Assembly: GCA_017633615.1 (NCBI GenBank)
Contig: JAGBPB010000084.1
Span: forward strand, 1 to 21,585
Source of the DNA: Bacteroidaceae bacterium
GTDB taxonomy: Bacteria > Bacteroidota > Bacteroidia > Bacteroidales > Bacteroidaceae
Length of the DNA: 21,585 bases
Direction: 5' to 3'
The stretch's first letter is position 1. Every line of letters begins with the position of its first letter. A program made the translations under genes and the position numbers. The notes below the pieces were generated by a model, which did no database searches, was not told where the DNA came from, and worked only from the letters and a program-made list of their open reading frames with translations. This document shows positions 13,670 to 21,585 of this stretch, in pieces.

Positions 13670-13743
13670 GCTTCTTTAGCTCAGTTGGTTAGAGCATCTG
13701 ACTGTTAATCAGGGGGTCCTAGGTTCAAGTCCTAGAAGGAGCG
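13670..13743 (+). tRNA. tRNA-Asn (anticodon GTT)
   Basis: The full cloverleaf can be folded: acceptor GCTTCTT with AAGGAGC (one U-G pair), D arm GCTC/GAGC, anticodon stem TCTGA/TCAGG with loop CTGTTAA (anticodon GTT), 5-nt variable region and T arm CTAGG/CCTAG with loop TTCAAGT. The discriminator is G and CCA is not encoded. It is followed by a terminator and by several tRNA-Asn-derived fragments. Confidence 0.97.
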
Positions 13744-13745
13744 CA

Positions 13746-13775
13746 ACAGGAGTTTCAAATGAAACTCCTGTTTTT
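13746..13775 (+). terminator. Rho-independent terminator of tRNA-Asn
   Basis: ACAGGAGTTTCA (13746-13757) and TGAAACTCCTGT (13760-13771) form a perfect stem of up to 12 bp, followed directly by TTTTG. It begins 3 nt after the tRNA, a standard arrangement for a single tRNA transcript. Confidence 0.85.
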
Positions 13776-13783
13776 GTTTATCC

Positions 13784-13891
13784 AGACTTGACCTAGTCCC
13801 CATGGTCCTAGGTTTTTCGGACTCTTCGAGTCCTCAACAGCTTCGCAGTCAAGTCCTAGAAGGAGCGATACCCCTGATTAACAGTCAGGGG
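13784..13891 (+). repeat. Cluster of direct and inverted tRNA-Asn fragments
   Basis: Within 108 nt lie four pieces of the adjacent tRNA. A degenerate inverted copy of the T arm is at 13784-13801. A direct copy of GGTCCTAGGTT is at 13804-13814 (tRNA 13715-13725). A 19-nt exact direct copy of the tRNA 3' end is at 13849-13867 (tRNA 13725-13743). An 18-nt exact inverted copy of the anticodon arm is at 13871-13888 (tRNA 13698-13715). A perfect hairpin GGACTC-TTC-GAGTCC (13819-13833) separates the direct pieces. The last hairpin, CCCCTGA/TCAGGGG (13871-13891), lies 3 nt beyond the stop codon of the LRR gene. The direct 3'-end copy looks like an attachment-site duplication; the inverted pieces do not fit simple integration. 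Confidence 0.85.
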
Positions 13892-15670: not shown

Positions 15671-16950
15671 CTCCTGGTAAATTTCAAATTATTACTGAAA
15701 AGGATAGACAAAATGACACAGATACCCACTGCAAAAGGATAGTAAAGATATGGGATTATCTGCGTAGTGGCAAGACCGGTCAGACCGGCAGCCATGAGCA
15801 ACTGGGCTCCGTAAGGAATTATTCCCTGTACAAAGCAGCTGAATATATCCATCAGACTGGCAGCCCGGCGTTTGGGTATATTGTATTTATCAGAAATGTC
15901 ATTCACTATGCCGCCCACGGTAATGATGGCTATCGTATTGTTGGCTGTACAAAGGTTGGCCAGGCCGGTAAGCAGGCCTATACCCAACTCTGCACCCCTG
16001 CGCCCGTGCACACGCTTTACTATACCACGCATGATATACTCCAGGCCTCCGTTATATTTTATGGTGCCCAGCATTCCCCCCGCCAGCAGAGTAACAATGA
16101 TAAGGTCACCCATACCGACAATACCCTGACCCATTGAGCTGAGCCAGCTAAACCAGTCAAGTGATCCGGTGCTGAAACCTACAACCGCATTCAGCAACAA
16201 ACCTATCAGCAATACCAGAGTTACATTCATCCCGAACAGGGCAAGCACAATCACAGACAGATAAGGTACCAGTTTGAGCCACTCAATGGACTGGACATCA
16301 GATGTTGTCTGGATGCTCATTCCCTTAAACACATAATATCCCGCAACCACTATCACAGCAGGCAGCACAATCCTGAAATTGGCACGGAACTTGTCACTCA
16401 TGGCGCATCCCACAGCTCGTGTAGCAGCTATGGTGGTGTCAGATATGAATGACAGGTTATCGCCAAAAAATGATCCGCCTACTATAAGTGCGGCCATCAT
16501 ACCCTGGCTCATGCCTGTCTCCTGGGCAATGCCATTAGCGATAGGCACCAGTGCTACAATGGTACCCACGCTTGTACCTATGGCAAGTGATACAAAACAT
16601 GCCGTAAGGAACAGTCCTGCGAGCAAAGCCTTGGCAGGTACTATGCTCAGCGTAAAGTTCACCGTAGCTTCAATGGAACCCATCTCCCCTGCTGATCCTG
16701 CAAAAGCTCCCGCCAACATGAATATCCAGACCATAAGCAAGATATTCCAATGGCCCGCCCCTTCAGAGAATACGTTGATCCTGTAGTCAATCTTGCCCGG
16801 CGTTATGGCTACGGCATAGACTGATGCCAGCAGGAAAGCCGATGCCACCGGCACCTTGTAGAAATCACCTGCCAGCAATGAAGAAACCAGATAAACAATC
16901 AGGAATACAAATATCGGGCTTAATGCAAGCAACCCGGGTATCTTTTTCAT
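15667..16950 (-). CDS. NhaC-family Na+/H+ antiporter
   Basis: 427 aa and about 11 hydrophobic segments, an inner-membrane transporter. The NhaC signature is clear: GTSVGTIVALVPIANGIA near residue 124 and GGSFFGDNLSFISDTTIAAT near 157, with acidic residues in the transport core, and a second half containing GLANLCTANNTIAIITVGGI. NhaC-type proteins exchange Na+ for H+; relatives in this superfamily exchange malate/lactate or arginine-type solutes, so the exact substrate is inferred. The ATG overlaps the manC stop by 1 nt (TAATG), and its TGA overlaps the LRR gene start by 4 nt. Translation of all three is therefore likely coupled. Confidence 0.88.
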   Translation of the reverse strand: MKKIPGLLALSPIFVFLIVYLVSSLLAGDFYKVPVASAFLLASVYAVAITPGKIDYRINVFSEGAGHWNILLMVWIFMLAGAFAGSAGEMGSIEATVNFTLSIVPAKALLAGLFLTACFVSLAIGTSVGTIVALVPIANGIAQETGMSQGMMAALIVGGSFFGDNLSFISDTTIAATRAVGCAMSDKFRANFRIVLPAVIVVAGYYVFKGMSIQTTSDVQSIEWLKLVPYLSVIVLALFGMNVTLVLLIGLLLNAVVGFSTGSLDWFSWLSSMGQGIVGMGDLIIVTLLAGGMLGTIKYNGGLEYIMRGIVKRVHGRRGAELGIGLLTGLANLCTANNTIAIITVGGIVNDISDKYNIPKRRAASLMDIFSCFVQGIIPYGAQLLMAAGLTGLATTQIIPYLYYPFAVGICVILSILFSNNLKFTRR

Positions 16951-18038
16951 TAAGAGTATTTCTCGCCATATTTAAGCATGGCGTCATTAATGTATCGTTT
17001 AAAGTCTGTCTCGTTATTTCGGCGGCATATTACCAGCACATCATCAGTATCCACCACAAGAAAATCTGCCAGGTCATCTATCACCACAAGTTTCTTCTCC
17101 TTGTTGCACAGAAACATGCTGTTCTGGCAGTTATAAACCTGATAATTGTACATACCCAGTACATTACCCTTATCATCCTTGGCGCAATAGTCATATAGCA
17201 GATCCCAGCTCTCAATATCGTTGAAGCGGAAATCACCTATGGCCATGCAGACCTTGTCCGTTTTCTCAAGGACACCATAGTCTATTGAGATGCGCGGGAA
17301 CGCTTCATAAACAGAGTAAAGCAAACCACGACGCTCGTCGCGGCTGTGCTTTGTGTCAAAAATACGGTTAAACTGTGCTACCATCTCAGGCAGACAAACC
17401 TTGGCCAGCTCTATGAATGAATTTGCATTCCACATAAGTAATCCTGAGTTCCAATAGAACTCTCCGCTATCTACAAACACCTTGGCAAAACTCTCCTCCG
17501 GTTTCTCTGTAAATGTACGCACGCTGTATATCCCATCGGCCTTCTGCTCATCAATCTGGATATAGCCGAAACGGGTTTCAGGTCTTGTGGGCCTGATACC
17601 TACGGTGAGTATGCATTCATTGTCCTTGACAAATGACATGCCCCGCTCTATCACATTTACATAAGGTGCCTCATCAATGATGACCAGGTCAGAGGGTACG
17701 AACAGGATATTGGCATTGGGGTTTATATCGCGAATGTGATATGACGCAAGCAAATTACTGGGAGCTGTACCTTTCATGACAGGCTCTCTCAATACCTGTA
17801 AAGGATTAAGGTCTGGTAGTTGCTTGCATACATCCTCATAAAAATCCAGATTTGTTGATACTATGATATTTTCCTCAGGGAATATGCGCTTCATTCTCTG
17901 CACGGTCTCTTTAAGCAGCGTGTTGCCGTTGTTGTTGAAATCAAGGAACTGCTTGGGCATACCTTTGCGGCTCAAAGGCCATAACCGCGTTCCGAATCCG
18001 CCCGCCATTACAACACAAAAATTATCAGGTCCTAACAT
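16950..18038 (-). CDS. manC: Mannose-1-phosphate guanylyltransferase (GDP-mannose pyrophosphorylase)
   Basis: 362 aa. The nucleotidyltransferase domain shows the pyrophosphorylase signature GGFGTRLWPLSR (13-24) and PKQF (28-31), then VFVPSDLVI-type Asp motif near 115, GYIQID near 165, FTEKP near 180, WNSGLLMWN near 196 and SIDYGVLEK near 255. The enzyme makes GDP-mannose from mannose 1-phosphate and GTP, the precursor for fucosylated or mannosylated surface glycans. It lacks the C-terminal cupin phosphomannose isomerase domain of bifunctional ManC/AlgA, so it is the short, monofunctional type. It leads the operon with the antiporter and LRR gene and has a good promoter at 18060-18089. Confidence 0.93.
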   Translation of the reverse strand: MLGPDNFCVVMAGGFGTRLWPLSRKGMPKQFLDFNNNGNTLLKETVQRMKRIFPEENIIVSTNLDFYEDVCKQLPDLNPLQVLREPVMKGTAPSNLLASYHIRDINPNANILFVPSDLVIIDEAPYVNVIERGMSFVKDNECILTVGIRPTRPETRFGYIQIDEQKADGIYSVRTFTEKPEESFAKVFVDSGEFYWNSGLLMWNANSFIELAKVCLPEMVAQFNRIFDTKHSRDERRGLLYSVYEAFPRISIDYGVLEKTDKVCMAIGDFRFNDIESWDLLYDYCAKDDKGNVLGMYNYQVYNCQNSMFLCNKEKKLVVIDDLADFLVVDTDDVLVICRRNNETDFKRYINDAMLKYGEKYS

Positions 18039-18186: not shown

Positions 18187-18268
18187 GCCCAGATGGCGGA
18201 ATCGGTAGACGCGCTGGTCTCAAACACCAGTGGGGCGACCCGTGCCGGTTCGACCCCGGCTCTGGGTA
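18187..18268 (+). tRNA. tRNA-Leu (anticodon CAA)
   Basis: This is a class II tRNA of 82 nt. Acceptor GCCCAGA pairs with TCTGGGT (G-U at 1-72), the anticodon stem CTGGT/ACCAG encloses CTCAAAC (anticodon CAA), a long variable arm follows (GGGGCGACCCGT region), and the T arm is GCCGG/CCGGC with loop TTCGACC. The discriminator is A and CCA is not encoded. The 3' end is the boundary of the accessory island: its last 13 nt plus CA recur at 21272-21286. Confidence 0.96.
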
Positions 18269-18324
18269 CAAGAAAAGGGAGGTTTTCGGACCTCCCTTTT
18301 CTTGTACCCAGAGCCGGGGTCGAA
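18249..18324 (+). terminator. Perfect 35-bp-arm palindrome over the tRNA-Leu 3' end and its terminator
   Basis: Positions 18249-18283 and 18290-18324 are exact inverted copies (35 bp each) around the 6-nt loop TTTCGG. The inner part (GGGAGGT-loop-ACCTCCC then TTTTCTT) is a standard terminator for tRNA-Leu. The outer 20 bp of the left arm are the T loop, T stem and acceptor 3' strand of the tRNA itself, so the right arm is an inverted copy of the tRNA end. If read through, the trailer would pair with the tRNA 3' half. Confidence 0.85.
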
Positions 18325-18439
18325 TAGACCTTTTTTTAGTTCGCCACAGCGAACACGCTCCCTACGGTCGCTTGGCGGCCCTCCGGGACCGCTCTCGCTC
18401 GCATACTCGCGTCGCCCCAATACTATTTCTCGCGGGTTA
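18256..18439 (+). repeat. Left copy of the island-flanking repeat (184 nt)
   Basis: This copy matches 21272-21437 in the same orientation. It holds CCGGCTCTGGGTACA (tRNA-Leu end), a hairpin with diverged stem, an inverted tRNA end, GACCTTTTTTTAGTTCGC with hairpin GTTCGC-CACA-GCGAAC, and a GC-rich tail through CGCATACTCGC to GGGTTA. The left copy carries 17 nt more than the right after GCGAACA. No convincing gene is seen in it; the ORFs crossing it are tRNA-antisense artefacts. Confidence 0.85.
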
Positions 18440-18475
18440 TTCTTTAACTTGCAAAAAAATGCGCGTTAATCTATA

Positions 18476-18598
18476 GGGATAAAAAATAAACCAGTTTCTT
18501 TTTTCTCCTCTCGGCTTGCAATTTAAACTTCGTTTGAATATAGGCTGCACCTCGGGATAAAAAACAAGTAAACTTCTTTTTTCTCCTCTCGGCTTGCA
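18476..18598 (+). repeat. Two 45-bp promoter-region repeats, period 78
   Basis: GGGATAAAAAA starts at 18476 and 18554, and a 25-nt exact block ending TCTCGGCTTGCA occupies 18496-18520 and 18574-18598. The 33 nt after each copy differ. The second copy leads directly into the -7 box TATATTTG; the first is followed by ATTTAAACTTCG, which is no longer a good -7. The unit looks like a mobile or duplicated promoter region. Confidence 0.75.
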
Positions 18599-18599
18599 T

Positions 18600-18607
18600 T
18601 ATATTTG
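18600..18607 (+). promoter_or_regulatory. -7 element for the small ORF/kinase-domain pair
   Basis: TATATTTG is a perfect TAnnTTTG box. TTTT lies at the -33 distance (18577-18580). The predicted start is near 18614, 14-21 nt before the two candidate ATGs at 18628 and 18635. Confidence 0.6.
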
Positions 18608-18634
18608 CAGTTAGAAACTAACTGATTATGAACT

Positions 18635-18775
18635 ATGACATTCCTCAACCAATTCCACAAGGAGGCAACGGAGCGCAAGATGCGGAAGATAGCCGAATCA
18701 CAGAAATCGCCAATGAGCTCGAAAGACTTTGCCGAATACATGAAGCGCAACGTGGAGCTGGCCAGTCAGATGTAG
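18635..18775 (+). CDS. Small basic protein of 46 aa upstream of the kinase-domain gene
   Basis: The frame from ATG 18635 to TAG 18773-18775 starts MTFLNQFHKEATERKMRK and ends with AEYMKRNVELASQM. It is charged, helix-forming and protein-like, with G/C-rich third codon positions. The overlapping frame from ATG 18628 gives a Pro/Gly/Gln-rich stretch (PQPIPQGGNGAQ) that looks non-coding. The TAG shares its G with a GTG (18775) in the kinase frame, a TAGTG arrangement typical of translational coupling. I therefore take this ORF as the real first gene. I do not recognise the family. The alternative is a single 213-aa kinase-domain protein from 18628. Confidence 0.55.
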   Translation: MTFLNQFHKEATERKMRKIAESQKSPMSSKDFAEYMKRNVELASQM

Positions 18776-19269
18776 TGTCATTGGAAGATGAACAACGTGT
18801 AGCCGAACAGATGGCCAAGGCTGCAGGTTACTGGATTCCGATGTCAGATGTATTTGATTTGGGAGTTCCAGGTCCTAGCGGCAATGAAAACGACACTTAC
18901 GTAGCAGATAAATACATCTACAAAGTAAATAATCTGTTCAATAGCGGAAGCATAACGGGATTGCTTCGTAAAATATGGATGCATAATCAGATTTTCCCGG
19001 AAACAGCATATTCTTTTTGTGGTTTTTGTGGCTTTGACGGAAGAACAGTTCTACCGGTTATTCGTCAAGCCAGAGTTTCTAATGCACGACCTGCCACATC
19101 GATAATGATTGATACTTATATGGTTGCATTAGGATTTCAAAAGACAGACAAGCCAGGTTATTACATCAATGATACCTATAAAGTCTGGGATGTATTACCA
19201 CGTAATGTTCTAGCAGATTCAGAAGGAGACATCTTTGTGGTTGACGCAGAGATTGCGCTCATTCAGTAA
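18775..19269 (+). CDS. Polyvalent-protein-type kinase-like domain, stand-alone
   Basis: 164 aa from GTG 18775, or 213 aa if translation starts at ATG 18628 (same frame). Counted from the long form, motifs are PSGNENDTYVADKYIYKVNN with the candidate ATP-binding Lys99, FPETAYSFCGFCG (124-135), VLPVIRQARV (141-150), and WDVLPRNVL with Asp188 and Asn193 in a D-x4-N catalytic arrangement, then DIFVVDAE with the metal-binding Asp206. This order matches the Ser/Thr/Tyr kinase-like domain known from phage and plasmid polyvalent proteins. Such domains are usually parts of very large proteins; here it is alone, in an island with no phage structural or conjugation genes. Activity is not shown. Confidence 0.65.
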   Translation: MSLEDEQRVAEQMAKAAGYWIPMSDVFDLGVPGPSGNENDTYVADKYIYKVNNLFNSGSITGLLRKIWMHNQIFPETAYSFCGFCGFDGRTVLPVIRQARVSNARPATSIMIDTYMVALGFQKTDKPGYYINDTYKVWDVLPRNVLADSEGDIFVVDAEIALIQ

Positions 19270-19432
19270 GACTCTTCCTATACTTCGCTGCCAGTCTGCA
19301 CAATACATCCAACTCCTCTATGAGTCTGGTTCGAAAACTGGTATCCTTCGGGGTACAAGAAAGACTTTGTAAGTTGTTGATTTTCAAACACTTTACAAAG
19401 TCTTGTTTCTTGTATCCCCCAAATTTGGTCAC
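19259..19432 (-). pseudogene. Possible minus-strand ORF or gene remnant
   Basis: A frame of 57 codons opens after a TGA in the GGTCAC repeat (first GTG at 19432) and ends at TGA 19261-19259, overlapping the last 11 nt of the kinase gene. The C-terminal half reads TRLIEELDVLCRLAAKYRKS, which looks like a genuine helical protein end. The upstream half passes through the inverted repeat at 19350-19419. It may be the tail of a gene cut off by insertion, or chance. No start signal or family is evident. Confidence 0.25.
19350..19419 (+). repeat. Imperfect inverted repeat downstream of the kinase gene
   Basis: GGGGTACAAGAAA-GACTTTG at 19350 onward is complementary to CAAAGTC-TTG-TTTCTTGTATCCCC ending at 19419, with 17 nt between the arms, a 3-nt insertion and a 1-nt insertion in the right arm. 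Its outer GGGTACAAGAAA arms are the same sequence as the start of the tRNA-Leu terminator palindrome (18265-18276). It probably folds in RNA and may act as terminator for the kinase gene, though no U run follows. Confidence 0.6.
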
Positions 19433-19445
19433 TTTTGGTCACCTT
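19425..19445 (+). repeat. Left GGTCAC repeat pair (period 10)
   Basis: TTGGTCAC-TT-TTGGTCACC contains GGTCAC at 19427 and 19437. The same 21-nt unit recurs twice beyond the AraC gene (21118 and 21148), in the same orientation, so the units bracket the HXXEE/AraC pair. Confidence 0.8.
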
Positions 19446-19493
19446 TTTTCTTTCAGACCAAAGAACCAAAGAGACCGATAAACAGGAATTTGA

Positions 19494-20120
19494 CTACTTC
19501 CTCATCGGGCCGAAAGCGGACTGCTCGTTGAATTCATAACCGGGCTTCTTCCCCAGGTTCCAATACAGCGGAGAACGGAAGCAGAAGAGGAAGAAGGCGA
19601 TGAAGTACACTGCTGCAGTGGCGTAATCGTACCAGAAGAAATCGGCCGGATTGAAAACGGCGAAGAAGTAGTAGAAAGAGATGGGCGCCAGGCCGAACAC
19701 GGCCGTGATCAAACCGGCATTGTAGCAGGTCTTGAGACGGACATTGAACAGCACCAGATGCATCAGTAGCTCTGCGAAGTTGAAAATCAGCGCACCGATG
19801 GTGAGGAAACGGACACCGGGAAGGAACACCGGAAGAAGATAGACCATCAGCAGGAAAGTCCAGTTGCCGAACATGCTGCTCAGGTGATTACAGTTCCATT
19901 TCGATGTATCCAACTCATCCTTGCCCAGGAGAACCTTTACGCCCATATACGGAAATCCGCCTGGCCAGCCGAATTCTTCATAGAAATGAAGGAAGAGGAT
20001 AGAGACGGAAGCCAGCAGAAGTTTCTGGACAATGCCAATTGGAAGAAGGACGGCCAAAACTGCGGTAATCCCCGCAAGGTAGACCGAGATGTGATGCCAG
20101 TTGTTGACGAACTTTTTCAT
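19494..20120 (-). CDS. HXXEE-domain membrane protein
   Basis: 208 aa with about six hydrophobic segments. The defining HFYEE (H-x-x-E-E) lies at about residues 45-49 within the second hydrophobic region, followed by WPGGFPYMG; a second acidic/His pair, FAELLMH, is near 114-120. This places it in the HXXEE domain family of unknown function. The residues look like a metal site within the membrane, but no activity is established for the family. It is transcribed divergently from an AraC-family regulator 141 nt away, the usual layout of a regulator and its target. Codon choice differs from that of the housekeeping genes, with many GAA/GAAG runs, consistent with transfer. Confidence 0.75.
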   Translation of the reverse strand: MKKFVNNWHHISVYLAGITAVLAVLLPIGIVQKLLLASVSILFLHFYEEFGWPGGFPYMGVKVLLGKDELDTSKWNCNHLSSMFGNWTFLLMVYLLPVFLPGVRFLTIGALIFNFAELLMHLVLFNVRLKTCYNAGLITAVFGLAPISFYYFFAVFNPADFFWYDYATAAVYFIAFFLFCFRSPLYWNLGKKPGYEFNEQSAFGPMRK

Positions 20121-20149
20121 TTGTATGCAGTATTATTGTATCGTTGTTG

Positions 20150-20178
20150 CAAAGGTACTCAGATAAAGCAGCCCCAAA
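20150..20178 (-). promoter_or_regulatory. Promoter of the HXXEE gene
   Basis: On the minus strand TACCTTTG (20157-20150) is a perfect TAnnTTTG box, 29 nt before the ATG at 20120. TTTG at 20178-20175 is 17 nt upstream (TTTT is at 19 nt), so the -33 spacing is a little short. Confidence 0.6.
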
Positions 20179-20196
20179 AAGGTCAAAAATAGTGCA

Positions 20197-20223
20197 ATAT
20201 TGAGCAAAAGGTACGATATTGAG
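20197..20223 (+). promoter_or_regulatory. Candidate AraC-family operator: ATATTGAG direct repeats
   Basis: ATATTGAG occurs at 20197-20204 and 20216-20223, a period of 19, in the divergent promoter region. AraC-family proteins often bind two direct half-sites about two helical turns apart. The second half-site lies at the position expected for RNA polymerase contacts upstream of the AraC -7 box. Confidence 0.45.
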
Positions 20224-20233
20224 TTATTCTGAC

Positions 20234-20241
20234 TATATTTG
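20234..20241 (+). promoter_or_regulatory. -7 element of the AraC-family gene
   Basis: TATATTTG is a perfect TAnnTTTG box, 20 nt before the ATG at 20262. No TTTG is found 19 nt upstream, which would be expected of a promoter needing an activator. Confidence 0.55.
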
Positions 20242-20261
20242 CAGCCAAAAACAGCATTATT

Positions 20262-21032
20262 ATGGAGCAAAAAGTCGGCATTTCTCTTTGCATCAATGGC
20301 ACAGCAAAACGTATTGCCGGGAGCCGCATGGGTCAGATTACACCGGGGATGGCAACTATCATCACCCCGGCTCTTCCGACCGTAGAGCTTGAGCGCAGCC
20401 CGGACTTTGAAGAATGCACCGTCCTTGAGAAGATGAATCTGGTAGCCGAAGAGACTGCTCCCTTCTTCCCCCAGATGATGCCCGTAATTAATCAGTCGTT
20501 TCCTTCCATCCAACTGGATGATTCCACCGTCAAGTACTTTGTTGAGGCGGCAGGCAGGATTTCAGAGCGGGAGAGACGGGATGCCCAAACACCTCTCTTT
20601 CGGCAGATGAACGAGCGCTTGATTTCACTGATGCGTATGGAACTAATCCTCGGCGTGTTGTATGAGATTGCCTCCGGAAAGCGTCCTGAAGCTGAAAAGC
20701 CTTCACGGGGCGAGCAGGTTTTCGTGCGTTTTATGCAATCGCTGGGACGTGACTTTGCAAAGCGACGGACGGTAGCAGACTATGCCGATGAAGCCGCTCT
20801 CTCGGTGCGGCATTTCTCCACGTTGATTAACCGCTATAGTGGCCAAACGCCCATACAATGGATAACCACTTTTACCGTCAACCAGGCTAAATCCCTTTTA
20901 CTGCAGCCGGACATCCAGGTAAAAGAAATCGCCGCCCGGCTTGGCTTCCCGGAACAGTTCACCTTCCGAAAATACTTCAAGACACACGCAGGGCTGTCTC
21001 CGACAGAGTATCGGAAGGCCTCTTCCCGATAA
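20262..21032 (+). CDS. AraC-family transcriptional regulator
   Basis: 256 aa. The C-terminal ~100 residues are a full AraC/XylS DNA-binding domain with two helix-turn-helix units: TVADYADEAALSVRHFSTLI followed by GQTPIQWIT, then VKEIAARLGFPEQFTFRKYF with GLSPTEYRK. The N-terminal part (1-150) is the effector/dimer region; it is shorter than in many AraC proteins and I cannot name a ligand. The ATG at 20262 follows a -7 box by 20 nt. It probably controls the divergent HXXEE gene and itself, through the ATATTGAG repeats between them. It lies between GGTCAC repeats and may travel with its target as a cassette. Confidence 0.9.
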   Translation: MEQKVGISLCINGTAKRIAGSRMGQITPGMATIITPALPTVELERSPDFEECTVLEKMNLVAEETAPFFPQMMPVINQSFPSIQLDDSTVKYFVEAAGRISERERRDAQTPLFRQMNERLISLMRMELILGVLYEIASGKRPEAEKPSRGEQVFVRFMQSLGRDFAKRRTVADYADEAALSVRHFSTLINRYSGQTPIQWITTFTVNQAKSLLLQPDIQVKEIAARLGFPEQFTFRKYFKTHAGLSPTEYRKASSR

Positions 21033-21100
21033 TGGCCTTTCCTGCGTTAAATATCGATTTATCTAACTGTCAAAGTTAATCATTATTCTCCAGACCCTCT

Positions 21101-21116
21101 AGAACTAGATAGTTCT
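21101..21116 (+). repeat. Short perfect inverted repeat after the AraC gene
   Basis: AGAACTA, GA, TAGTTCT is a 7-bp inverted repeat with a 2-nt centre, immediately left of the GGTCAC array. It is better suited to a dimeric protein-binding site than to an RNA hairpin. Between 21033 and 21100 I see nothing else convincing. Confidence 0.4.
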
Positions 21117-21117
21117 T

Positions 21118-21168
21118 TCGGTCACTTTTGGTCACCTCTTTCAAAATTTGGTCACTATTGGTCACCTT
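21118..21168 (+). repeat. Right GGTCAC repeat array (four copies, 10-bp phasing)
   Basis: GGTCAC begins at 21120, 21130, 21150 and 21160, all multiples of 10 apart and so on the same helical face. The units are TCGGTCACTTTTGGTCACC and TTGGTCACTATTGGTCACC, near copies of the left pair at 19425. The layout suggests cooperative protein binding, for example recombinase arm sites. Confidence 0.8.
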
Positions 21169-21228
21169 TTCCGCTTATTATTTGAATACACCGCTGGTAT
21201 TACTCAACCACTTGATAGACAAATCATT

Positions 21229-21260
21229 CGATAGCCACCAAGAATACACGATAGCCACCA
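21229..21260 (+). repeat. CGATAGCCACCA direct repeats, period 20
   Basis: CGATAGCCACCA occurs exactly at 21229-21240 and 21249-21260, ending 11 nt before the tRNA-Leu-end copy at 21272. Together with the GGTCAC array it gives the right end the look of an attachment-site arm. Confidence 0.75.
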
Positions 21261-21271
21261 GTTATTTAGCT

Positions 21272-21437
21272 CCGGCTCTGGGTACAGAAAAAGGCAGGCT
21301 TAACGCTTGCCTTTTTCTGTACCCAGAACCGGGGCCGAATAGACCTTTTTTTAGTTCGCCACAGCGAACAGGGCGGCCCTCCGGGACCGCTCTCGCTCGC
21401 ATACTCGCTTCGCCCCAATACGTTATATCGTGGGTTA
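21272..21437 (+). repeat. Right copy of the island-flanking repeat with terminator hairpin
   Basis: This is the direct counterpart of 18256-18439. CCGGCTCTGGGTACA (21272-21286) is identical to the tRNA-Leu end, but no tRNA body precedes it. The hairpin GGCAGGC-TTAAC-GCTTGCC (21293-21311) then TTTTT differs in sequence from the left one yet keeps the fold on the plus strand through a G-U pair. The inverted tRNA end and GC-rich tail follow with few changes and a 17-nt shorter centre. It ends at GGGTTA, inside the stop codon of the next minus-strand gene, and may serve as its terminator. Confidence 0.85.
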
Positions 21438-21585
21438 GGGGCAGACGGGACGCACAGTCAGGCCTTCATAACGAAACCTGCCATTGGAACAGACAGGATT
21501 ATCAGCATCCAGATCCCGCAACCAGTAACAACAGCATGAGTCCCTATCCTTATAATAAACTCCAGTGTCAAAAATGTCGTCACGA
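21435..21585 (-). CDS. C-terminal fragment of an exported-type protein (FISUMP-like tail), runs off window
   Basis: 50 codons are open from the window edge to TAA at 21437-21435. The translation has YYKDRDSCCCYWLRDLDAD in the middle and ends RYEGLTVRPVCP. Endings of the type G-x-x-V-R-P-V-C are common at the C-terminus of FISUMP-like and related extracellular domains of Bacteroidetes, with a preceding aromatic/Cys segment, so I suggest that class with caution. Signal peptide and main domains lie outside. The stop codon coincides with the outer edge of the island's right repeat, so the repeat tail forms the 3' untranslated region. Confidence 0.5.
   Translation of the reverse strand, partial: RDDIFDTGVYYKDRDSCCCYWLRDLDADNPVCSNGRFRYEGLTVRPVCP

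Follow-up and report, generated by a model that had tools for sequence, protein, structure and literature searches.

The tRNA-Leu locus and its repeats

We analysed 21,585 nt of contig JAGBPB010000084.1 (assembly GCA_017633615.1, forward strand, positions 1 to 21,585; hereafter the window) of a Bacteroidaceae bacterium, in which a tRNA-Leu gene is followed by two repeats of approximately 170 nt with three cargo genes between them (Table 1). A first-pass annotation had reported that the end of the tRNA recurs, with a hairpin and a GC-rich tail, in the same orientation on both sides of this cargo, and had read the whole as a tRNA-targeted element lacking its recombinase. The recurrence is confirmed, the tRNA end being identical over 14 nt. 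Two features go beyond the annotation. Each repeat also carries an antisense copy of the tRNA end, placed between the hairpin and a T7 run that leads into the tail. A further GGGTAC, at 19351-19356, precedes a third hairpin, shorter than the other two (arms 19361-19378 and 19387-19404).

Global alignment of the first and second repeat copies (182 and 164 nt) gave 146 matches in 183 columns, of which 20 were gap columns. The palindrome formed with the antisense copy has arms of 35 nt, 100% complementary, in the first repeat and of 37 nt, 86% complementary, in the second. The RNA fold of 18187-18336 had an energy of -98.4 kcal/mol (z -10.65), and 0/200 shuffles folded as well; in the lowest-energy fold of the tRNA-Leu with the palindrome, the tRNA 3' end pairs with the antisense copy and not with the remaining tRNA. 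The structure shared by the two tRNA-Leu repeats is far beyond chance. Rfam reported only tRNAs across the whole window and only sub-threshold matches at 18270-18470, so the repeat matched no known RNA family there.

Table 1. Positions of the features at the tRNA-Leu locus, and of one further tRNA flank, in the window.
Feature	Position	Strand	Basis or remark
tRNA-Asn whose 3' flank contains a sense (19 nt) and an antisense (18 nt) copy of tRNA parts but lacks a tail	13670..13888	+	
tRNA-Leu, anticodon CAA	18187..18269	+	ARAGORN and Rfam; 3' end CCGGCTCTGGGTAC at 18256-18269
Terminator hairpin of tRNA-Leu: A-tract, GGGAGGT stem, T-tract	18270..18303	+	
Antisense (inverted) copy of the last 21 nt of tRNA-Leu, exact	18304..18324	-	
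Structured tail, copy 1: T7, hairpin GTTCGC-CACA-GCGAAC, GC-rich hairpin, ..CCCCAATAC..	18330..18437	+	Hidden Markov model (HMM) match, alignment, covariation
Two 50-nt near-repeats (84%) upstream of the kinase gene	18476..18603	+	Promoter-like by eye only
Kinase-PolyVal gene, 213 aa	18628..19269	+	PF18762, E 2e-23
Probable large serine recombinase (LSR) scar: displaced gene 3' end (attP arm / attR)	19279..19349	-	Weak at protein level
Core GGGTAC and terminator-like hairpin, similar to an older 3' flank of tRNA-Leu	19350..19412	+	
GGTCAC repeat pair, possible recombinase arm sites	19421..19447	+	
HXXEE protein gene, 208 aa	19494..20120	-	PF13787, E 2.1e-11
AraC-type regulator gene, 256 aa	20262..21032	+	PF12833, E 3e-22
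Two more GGTCAC repeat pairs	21114..21170	+	
tRNA-Leu 3' end, second copy, 14 nt identical	21272..21285	+	
Second terminator hairpin, GGCAGGC type	21286..21318	+	
Second antisense copy of the tRNA-Leu end, two differences	21319..21339	-	
Structured tail, copy 2	21344..21435	+	HMM match
3' end of a gene ending ..VRPVCP*, running off the window	21435..21585	-	Minus-strand reading by eye; resembles open reading frames of relatives

Distribution of the tail among genomes and hosts

The genomes closest to the window are uncultured Bacteroidales/Bacteroidaceae metagenome-assembled genomes (MAGs), for example UBA1182, RUG11955 and RUG10916, and the comparison set contained one genome per species (loci of relatives are given below as L-numbers, their genomes as G-numbers). 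The second repeat copy had 7-24 matches in each of 15/15 relatives, with partial and some both-strand palindrome matches counted. The tail was present in 30/37 genomes of what we read as the genus, one of uncultured gut bacteria (1-27 matches each, up to 24 candidates scored per genome). It was found in 16/301 family genomes drawn, all 16 within the same genus set (up to two candidates scored per genome), and in 1/198 order genomes, that one being the centre genome itself (up to four scored). Carriage on known phages or plasmids was rejected, the partial matches being at chance level; eight IMG/VR contigs with an 18-mer contained no tail by HMM, and the 37-mer core gave 0 matches.

Tails follow tRNAs, tmRNA (L137, L141), 5S rRNA (L205) and the open frames of protein genes (L149, L203, and L217, whose gene we read as thioredoxin-reductase-like); the tmRNA and the 5S rRNA upstream of these tails are confirmed by Rfam. 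The usual order is the host gene end, then its terminator hairpin, an antisense copy of the same end, a conserved CC-T-run and the tail, and in L217 the hairpin consists of the gene end itself. We refer to the antisense copy and tail together as a mirror tail. Sixty-four of 100 distinct tails had a tRNA or tmRNA no more than 380 nt upstream, in every case on the tail's strand; leaving out the loci fetched for their tRNAs, the count was 59/94, again all on the same strand. The share of tRNAs that carry a tail was 14/45 or 16/45 in G014, depending on the cut-off, 14/29 in 28 stretches of G002 (34 Rfam matches in the genome) and 7/13 in 12 stretches of G001 (26 matches in the genome); the G006 sample had been fetched by its tails.

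The earlier annotation had described an accessory island bounded by the two repeats at tRNA-Leu, a layout that invites a reading of the repeats as attachment sites (attL/attR). Repeat copies stand behind many genes unrelated to tRNA-Leu, the finding that the annotation itself had named as refuting its reading, so these repeats are not in themselves an attL/attR pair.

Most antisense copies match their own host

When 40 tRNA types were compared, the adjoining tRNA gave the best antisense match in 51/58 tRNA-tail pairs, in a test that excludes tmRNA, pairs <20 or >130 nt apart, tRNA copies of <60 nt and duplicate flanks. In a fixed 80-nt flank, an antisense copy was present at 49/65 tailed tRNAs versus 8/57 untailed tRNAs of the genus, some of the eight holding tail remnants by our reading, and at 0/37 tRNAs of other Bacteroidales. 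The longest exact antisense copies are of 38 nt (tRNA-Lys) and 36 nt (tRNA-Ser), and one of 26 nt covers a tRNA-Arg anticodon arm. Of 49 scored copies, 39 begin at the first nucleotide of the tRNA end, and 30 stop within the T-arm, at tRNA positions 52-59.

When each copy was compared with the variants of its tRNA in different species, its own variant was better in 19 cases and worse in two, with one tie, the contrasts being mostly with distant variants. The sole telling case was the tRNA-Met of L157, where a lineage-specific T-stem change is also found in the antisense copy; this shared change suggests fresh or repeated copying.

Other copies of tRNA parts were seen in flanks that differ from this pattern. 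The sense and antisense copies behind the tRNA-Asn of the window surround the insert TTTTTCGGACTCTTCGAGTCCTCAACAGCTTCGCAG (flank 13744-13890), and nearly the same insert, with a sense copy, lies behind a tRNA-Met in G014 (L175). Downstream of tRNA-Val(cac) in L164 and L258 and of tRNA-Thr(tgt) in L159 there are GC-rich repeated units that each end in a sense tRNA piece (GCGAATCCGCC; AATCCGACTAGCG).

The mirror tail as an insertion

Behind tRNA-Arg(ccg), G002 and G001 carry the mirror tail and G014 has an empty site; the right flanks agree at 85-87% over approximately 550 nt. Behind tRNA-Leu(tag), G006 carries the mirror tail and the sites of G002 and G014 are empty, although the three genomes differ in their terminators. 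In both comparisons of filled with empty sites, the inserted stretch is the antisense copy plus the tail, behind the terminator. The mirror tail is an insertion behind the terminator at these two tRNAs with empty counterparts.

Full tails end in ..CACCTGCGT, as read by eye. We aligned 63 of the 67 listed tails, four short or odd ones being dropped and partial and near-identical ones having been left out earlier. The two tail hairpins covary: 98.6% of cells were paired, falling to 26-47% in slid controls, and 57 cells carried double changes versus 13.2 in shuffles, a value that 0/500 shuffles reached. The T-run occupied seven columns in 63/63 aligned tails and varied by substitution.

Cargo genes

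Pfam matches bear out the kinase-like, HXXEE and AraC genes of the first-pass annotation, along with its statement that the cargo lacks a recombinase, which holds for all three. PADLOC found no match to known defence genes in the window cargo. In related tRNA-Leu arrays, cargo genes matched the PADLOC candidates PDC-S23/S05 and PDC-S01, including a RhuM-Fic gene (L139 13849-14835; PDC-S23) and an AAA/DUF4143 gene (L225 11173-12492; PDC-S01). The kinase was considered as a part of the repeat unit and rejected, since the stretches fetched for eight homolog loci, from 5/15 genomes, contained neither the tail, nor the 71-nt block described below, nor a tRNA. For the ..RPVCP genes a FISUMP label could not be upheld: the two compared with NCBIfam had no match, and the one compared with Pfam had only a weak Lcl_C match below the cut-off.

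A probable scar of a large serine recombinase

In three relatives, LSR genes (PF00239, PF07508) lie directly in this tRNA-Leu (L010 8185-9819, L012 6144-7748 and L052 5775-7373), and their last codons are read from its antisense strand (..STQSRGRTGTG..). No LSR gene is among the cargo genes of the window. Other species also have the 71-nt block found at 19279-19349 in the window, several of them behind this tRNA-Leu, and the core GGGTAC follows it in 18/22 listed copies. One reading frame of the block gives YPEGYLFSNQ; the LSR homolog P0039 has ..YPEDYLFSNQ.. at its end. Several others among the 120 listed of 529 LSR homologs end in tails that look tRNA-derived by our reading. In G007 (L010) the block lies approximately 11 kb from the tRNA, beyond the recombinase, and adjoins a mirror tail. 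Block and core together (19279-19356) look like the displaced 3' end of an LSR gene, probably moved to the distal side when the element integrated.

The idea of a tRNA-targeted element can be kept in part. An accretion site at a tRNA without its recombinase agrees with the LSR genes of the three relatives and with the scar; the repeats as its attachment pair do not stand. The earlier annotation had also left open whether the island was a satellite mobilised in trans or a remnant, and 'remnant' fits better because the window keeps the apparent LSR gene end and core; for a satellite, no LSR attachment site was seen on the left-hand side.

History of the locus

In L004, L005, L006 and L018 what reads as a ..RPVCP gene end comes next after the repeat or palindrome of tRNA-Leu, in some cases with another small element in between; the kinase-to-AraC segment separates the two in the window. 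The gene end at 21435-21585 is 99.3% identical over 151 bp to L015 1-151, versus only 73% for the gene at 16950-18038, and where the window has its kinase-to-AraC cargo L015 has a gene that we read as ORF6N-like. Given this contrast in identity and the different cargo, the locus seems to exchange cargo between species, and the ..RPVCP gene end seems to have been exchanged horizontally and recently.

Two further arrangements were seen behind this tRNA-Leu. Another element of approximately 200 nt with inverted ends (GCCAAAGTGTCCCACAC .. GTGGGACACTTTGGC) takes the place of the tail in L005, L008 and L018. In L003 the tRNA-Leu is without T-arm and acceptor end in the assembly, through either a palindrome deletion or an assembly collapse.

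Competing explanations

Two explanations read all or part of the segment between the repeats as a mobile unit. That the two repeats form the attL/attR pair of a single tRNA-Leu element, whose integrase was lost or acts in trans, agrees with the 14-nt identical tRNA end in the same orientation at both borders and with the relatives that carry an LSR in this tRNA-Leu. It is nevertheless unlikely: the repeat family stands behind many unrelated genes, the two copies have different hairpins, similar to alleles found in different relatives, the LSR scar is internal rather than at a border, and none of the three cargo genes encodes an integrase. We give somewhat more room, while still doubting it, to a 1.9-kb non-autonomous tyrosine-recombinase element that would run from the core at 19351 to the core at 21285, with GGTCAC arm sites inside both ends and the HXXEE and AraC genes as cargo, in tandem with the LSR remnant. 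GGTCAC pairs do lie near both of its ends in the same orientation, and tRNA-end cores are on both sides. Such a pair also follows a core and hairpin in six other listed places, however, though the loci fetched gave no DNA match to HXXEE or AraC. The cargo contains no tyrosine recombinase, the relatives not having been searched for one. A similar motif (AAATTTGACCACATTTGACCAC) stands behind tRNA-Leu in L014 and L017, so GGTCAC may be an old resident flank. For the repeats near 19421 and at 21114-21170, arm sites of a second, tyrosine-type element and an old resident flank are both possible.

Others concern how the antisense copies arose. Terminated transcripts could have been reverse-transcribed by self-priming, with the U-tract folded back on the A-tract as primer, and then joined to complementary DNA of the tail; the copy starts where a terminated transcript would end, and its usual stop in the T-arm also agrees with this. 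A resident reverse transcriptase is unlikely because PF00078 was found in 7/37 genomes, including the tail-rich G014 and G003 but not the tail-rich G001, G002, G006, G008 and G009 (MAGs may be incomplete), and the T-run, constant in length and varying by substitution, is unlike a poly(A) track. We regard this route as improbable. Still less credible is an origin by selection with no copying at all, in which the tails are ordinary structured repeats and long stems are favoured as strong terminators. Terminator stems do vary with compensation between species, as judged by eye, but exact antisense copies of 38, 36 and 26 nt are unneeded for termination, and most untailed tRNAs have no antisense copy.

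The favoured reading

We consider it likely, though well short of certain, that the window holds an accreted tRNA-Leu hotspot without a recombinase, flanked by mirror tails specific to the genus, and that the antisense copies arose probably by fold-back copying. The segment between the two copies is probably such a hotspot rather than one satellite. Its layers would be the kinase gene up to the apparent LSR attR scar, the HXXEE/AraC pair between the GGTCAC repeats, the second tRNA-Leu-derived mirror tail, and the ..RPVCP gene. In quasi-palindrome or template-switch mutation at replication, fold-back copying extends a hairpin over its flank. Here the 3' end may fold at the terminator hairpin, be extended over the gene end, and then return to or join the tail, and such copying would account for the order of parts in mirror tails. 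The extended hairpin with its T-run may serve as a back-up terminator.

A bolder version is possible, and we put it forward tentatively: the tail would be a mobile or self-spreading repeat of a previously undescribed kind that settles behind a terminator and copies the 3' end of its host gene (tRNA, tmRNA, 5S rRNA or protein gene) in antisense, each copy being custom-made and perhaps refreshed as the gene evolves.

Several results weigh against the hotspot with fold-back copying. No copying event was seen among genomes sampled at one per species, and no mobilising enzyme for the tails was found. No tRNA or tmRNA was found upstream of 36/100 tails, a group that includes second copies in tRNA-Leu arrays, N stretches, and 5S rRNA and protein genes. 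In seven of 58 tRNA tails the own tRNA is not the best match, and 16/65 fail the fixed-flank test. Many antisense copies are imperfect, which makes strong selection for pairing doubtful. One of five covariation measures, that of further pair types, was below the shuffles (10 vs 11.9). As to the scar, the best-scoring recombinase ends matched the block weakly at the protein level, with p of 0.006-0.01 before correction, the block is without clear coding bias (42 synonymous changes, 54 not, in 20 copies), and its YPEGYLFSNQ frame is not that of the L010 recombinase end. On the left-hand side the window lacks an LSR attachment site, a mirror repeat standing there in place of L010-type sequence, and the scar leaves the plain 14-nt tRNA end of the second copy unexplained.

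Relation to known systems

REP (repetitive extragenic palindromic) elements and REPINs are described as short, structured intergenic repeats with many copies that are genus- or species-specific (PMC3733652, PMC3116915). Mirror tails are likewise dispersed, structured, intergenic and genus-specific. We know of no description of REPs that carry a copy of a host gene end. Y1 transposases of the REP-associated (RAYT) type are present in 23/37 genomes. As movers of the tail they were rejected, since no tail was found at the 18 examined of 42 listed Y1-transposase genes, within approximately 3 kb on each side; at these loci mirror tails differ from the REP/RAYT arrangement in having no linked Y1 transposase. 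In the ten of the 18 loci shown, other repeats flank the transposase gene. Repeats such as AAAGGGGACNGTNCCC flank Y1 transposases in L232-L246, and a similar repeat replaces the terminator of tRNA-Tyr (L192) and of tRNA-Leu(tag) (L182) in G014.

Like tRNA-borne genomic islands, the locus has a direct tRNA 3' fragment at both borders and accessory cargo; unlike them, its repeats carry an antisense tRNA copy and a genome-wide tail. It resembles LSR elements in having LSR genes in this tRNA-Leu in three relatives and a probable scar, and differs from them in the absence of the LSR gene from the window. Tyrosine-recombinase integrative and mobilizable elements are reported in tRNA 3' ends, and recent serine-recombinase ones as disrupting dispensable genes, in a review (PMC5704250). 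Among the open-licence papers listed, we found none on mirror repeats or on tRNA-targeting LSRs in Bacteroidetes. Mirror tails share the hairpin and T-run of intrinsic terminators, but the mirror stem runs into the tRNA T-arm and the T-run is often 3-7 nt away from it. They differ from quasi-palindrome mutation in that a conserved tail is inserted as well, and in that this is seen at many genes within one genus.

Implications

The mirror repeats are the more interesting part of this locus than the island. In the search for islands, direct repeats that follow a tRNA can belong to a resident family, and a displaced recombinase gene end may be a better sign of integration than direct repeats. The tRNA genes gain a competing hairpin of approximately 35 bp, which bears on tRNA folding and 3' processing. 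If the favoured reading is true, mirror tails would document fold-back copying in nature, or another insertion chemistry, at many sites per genome, and a rare mutational process would become countable.

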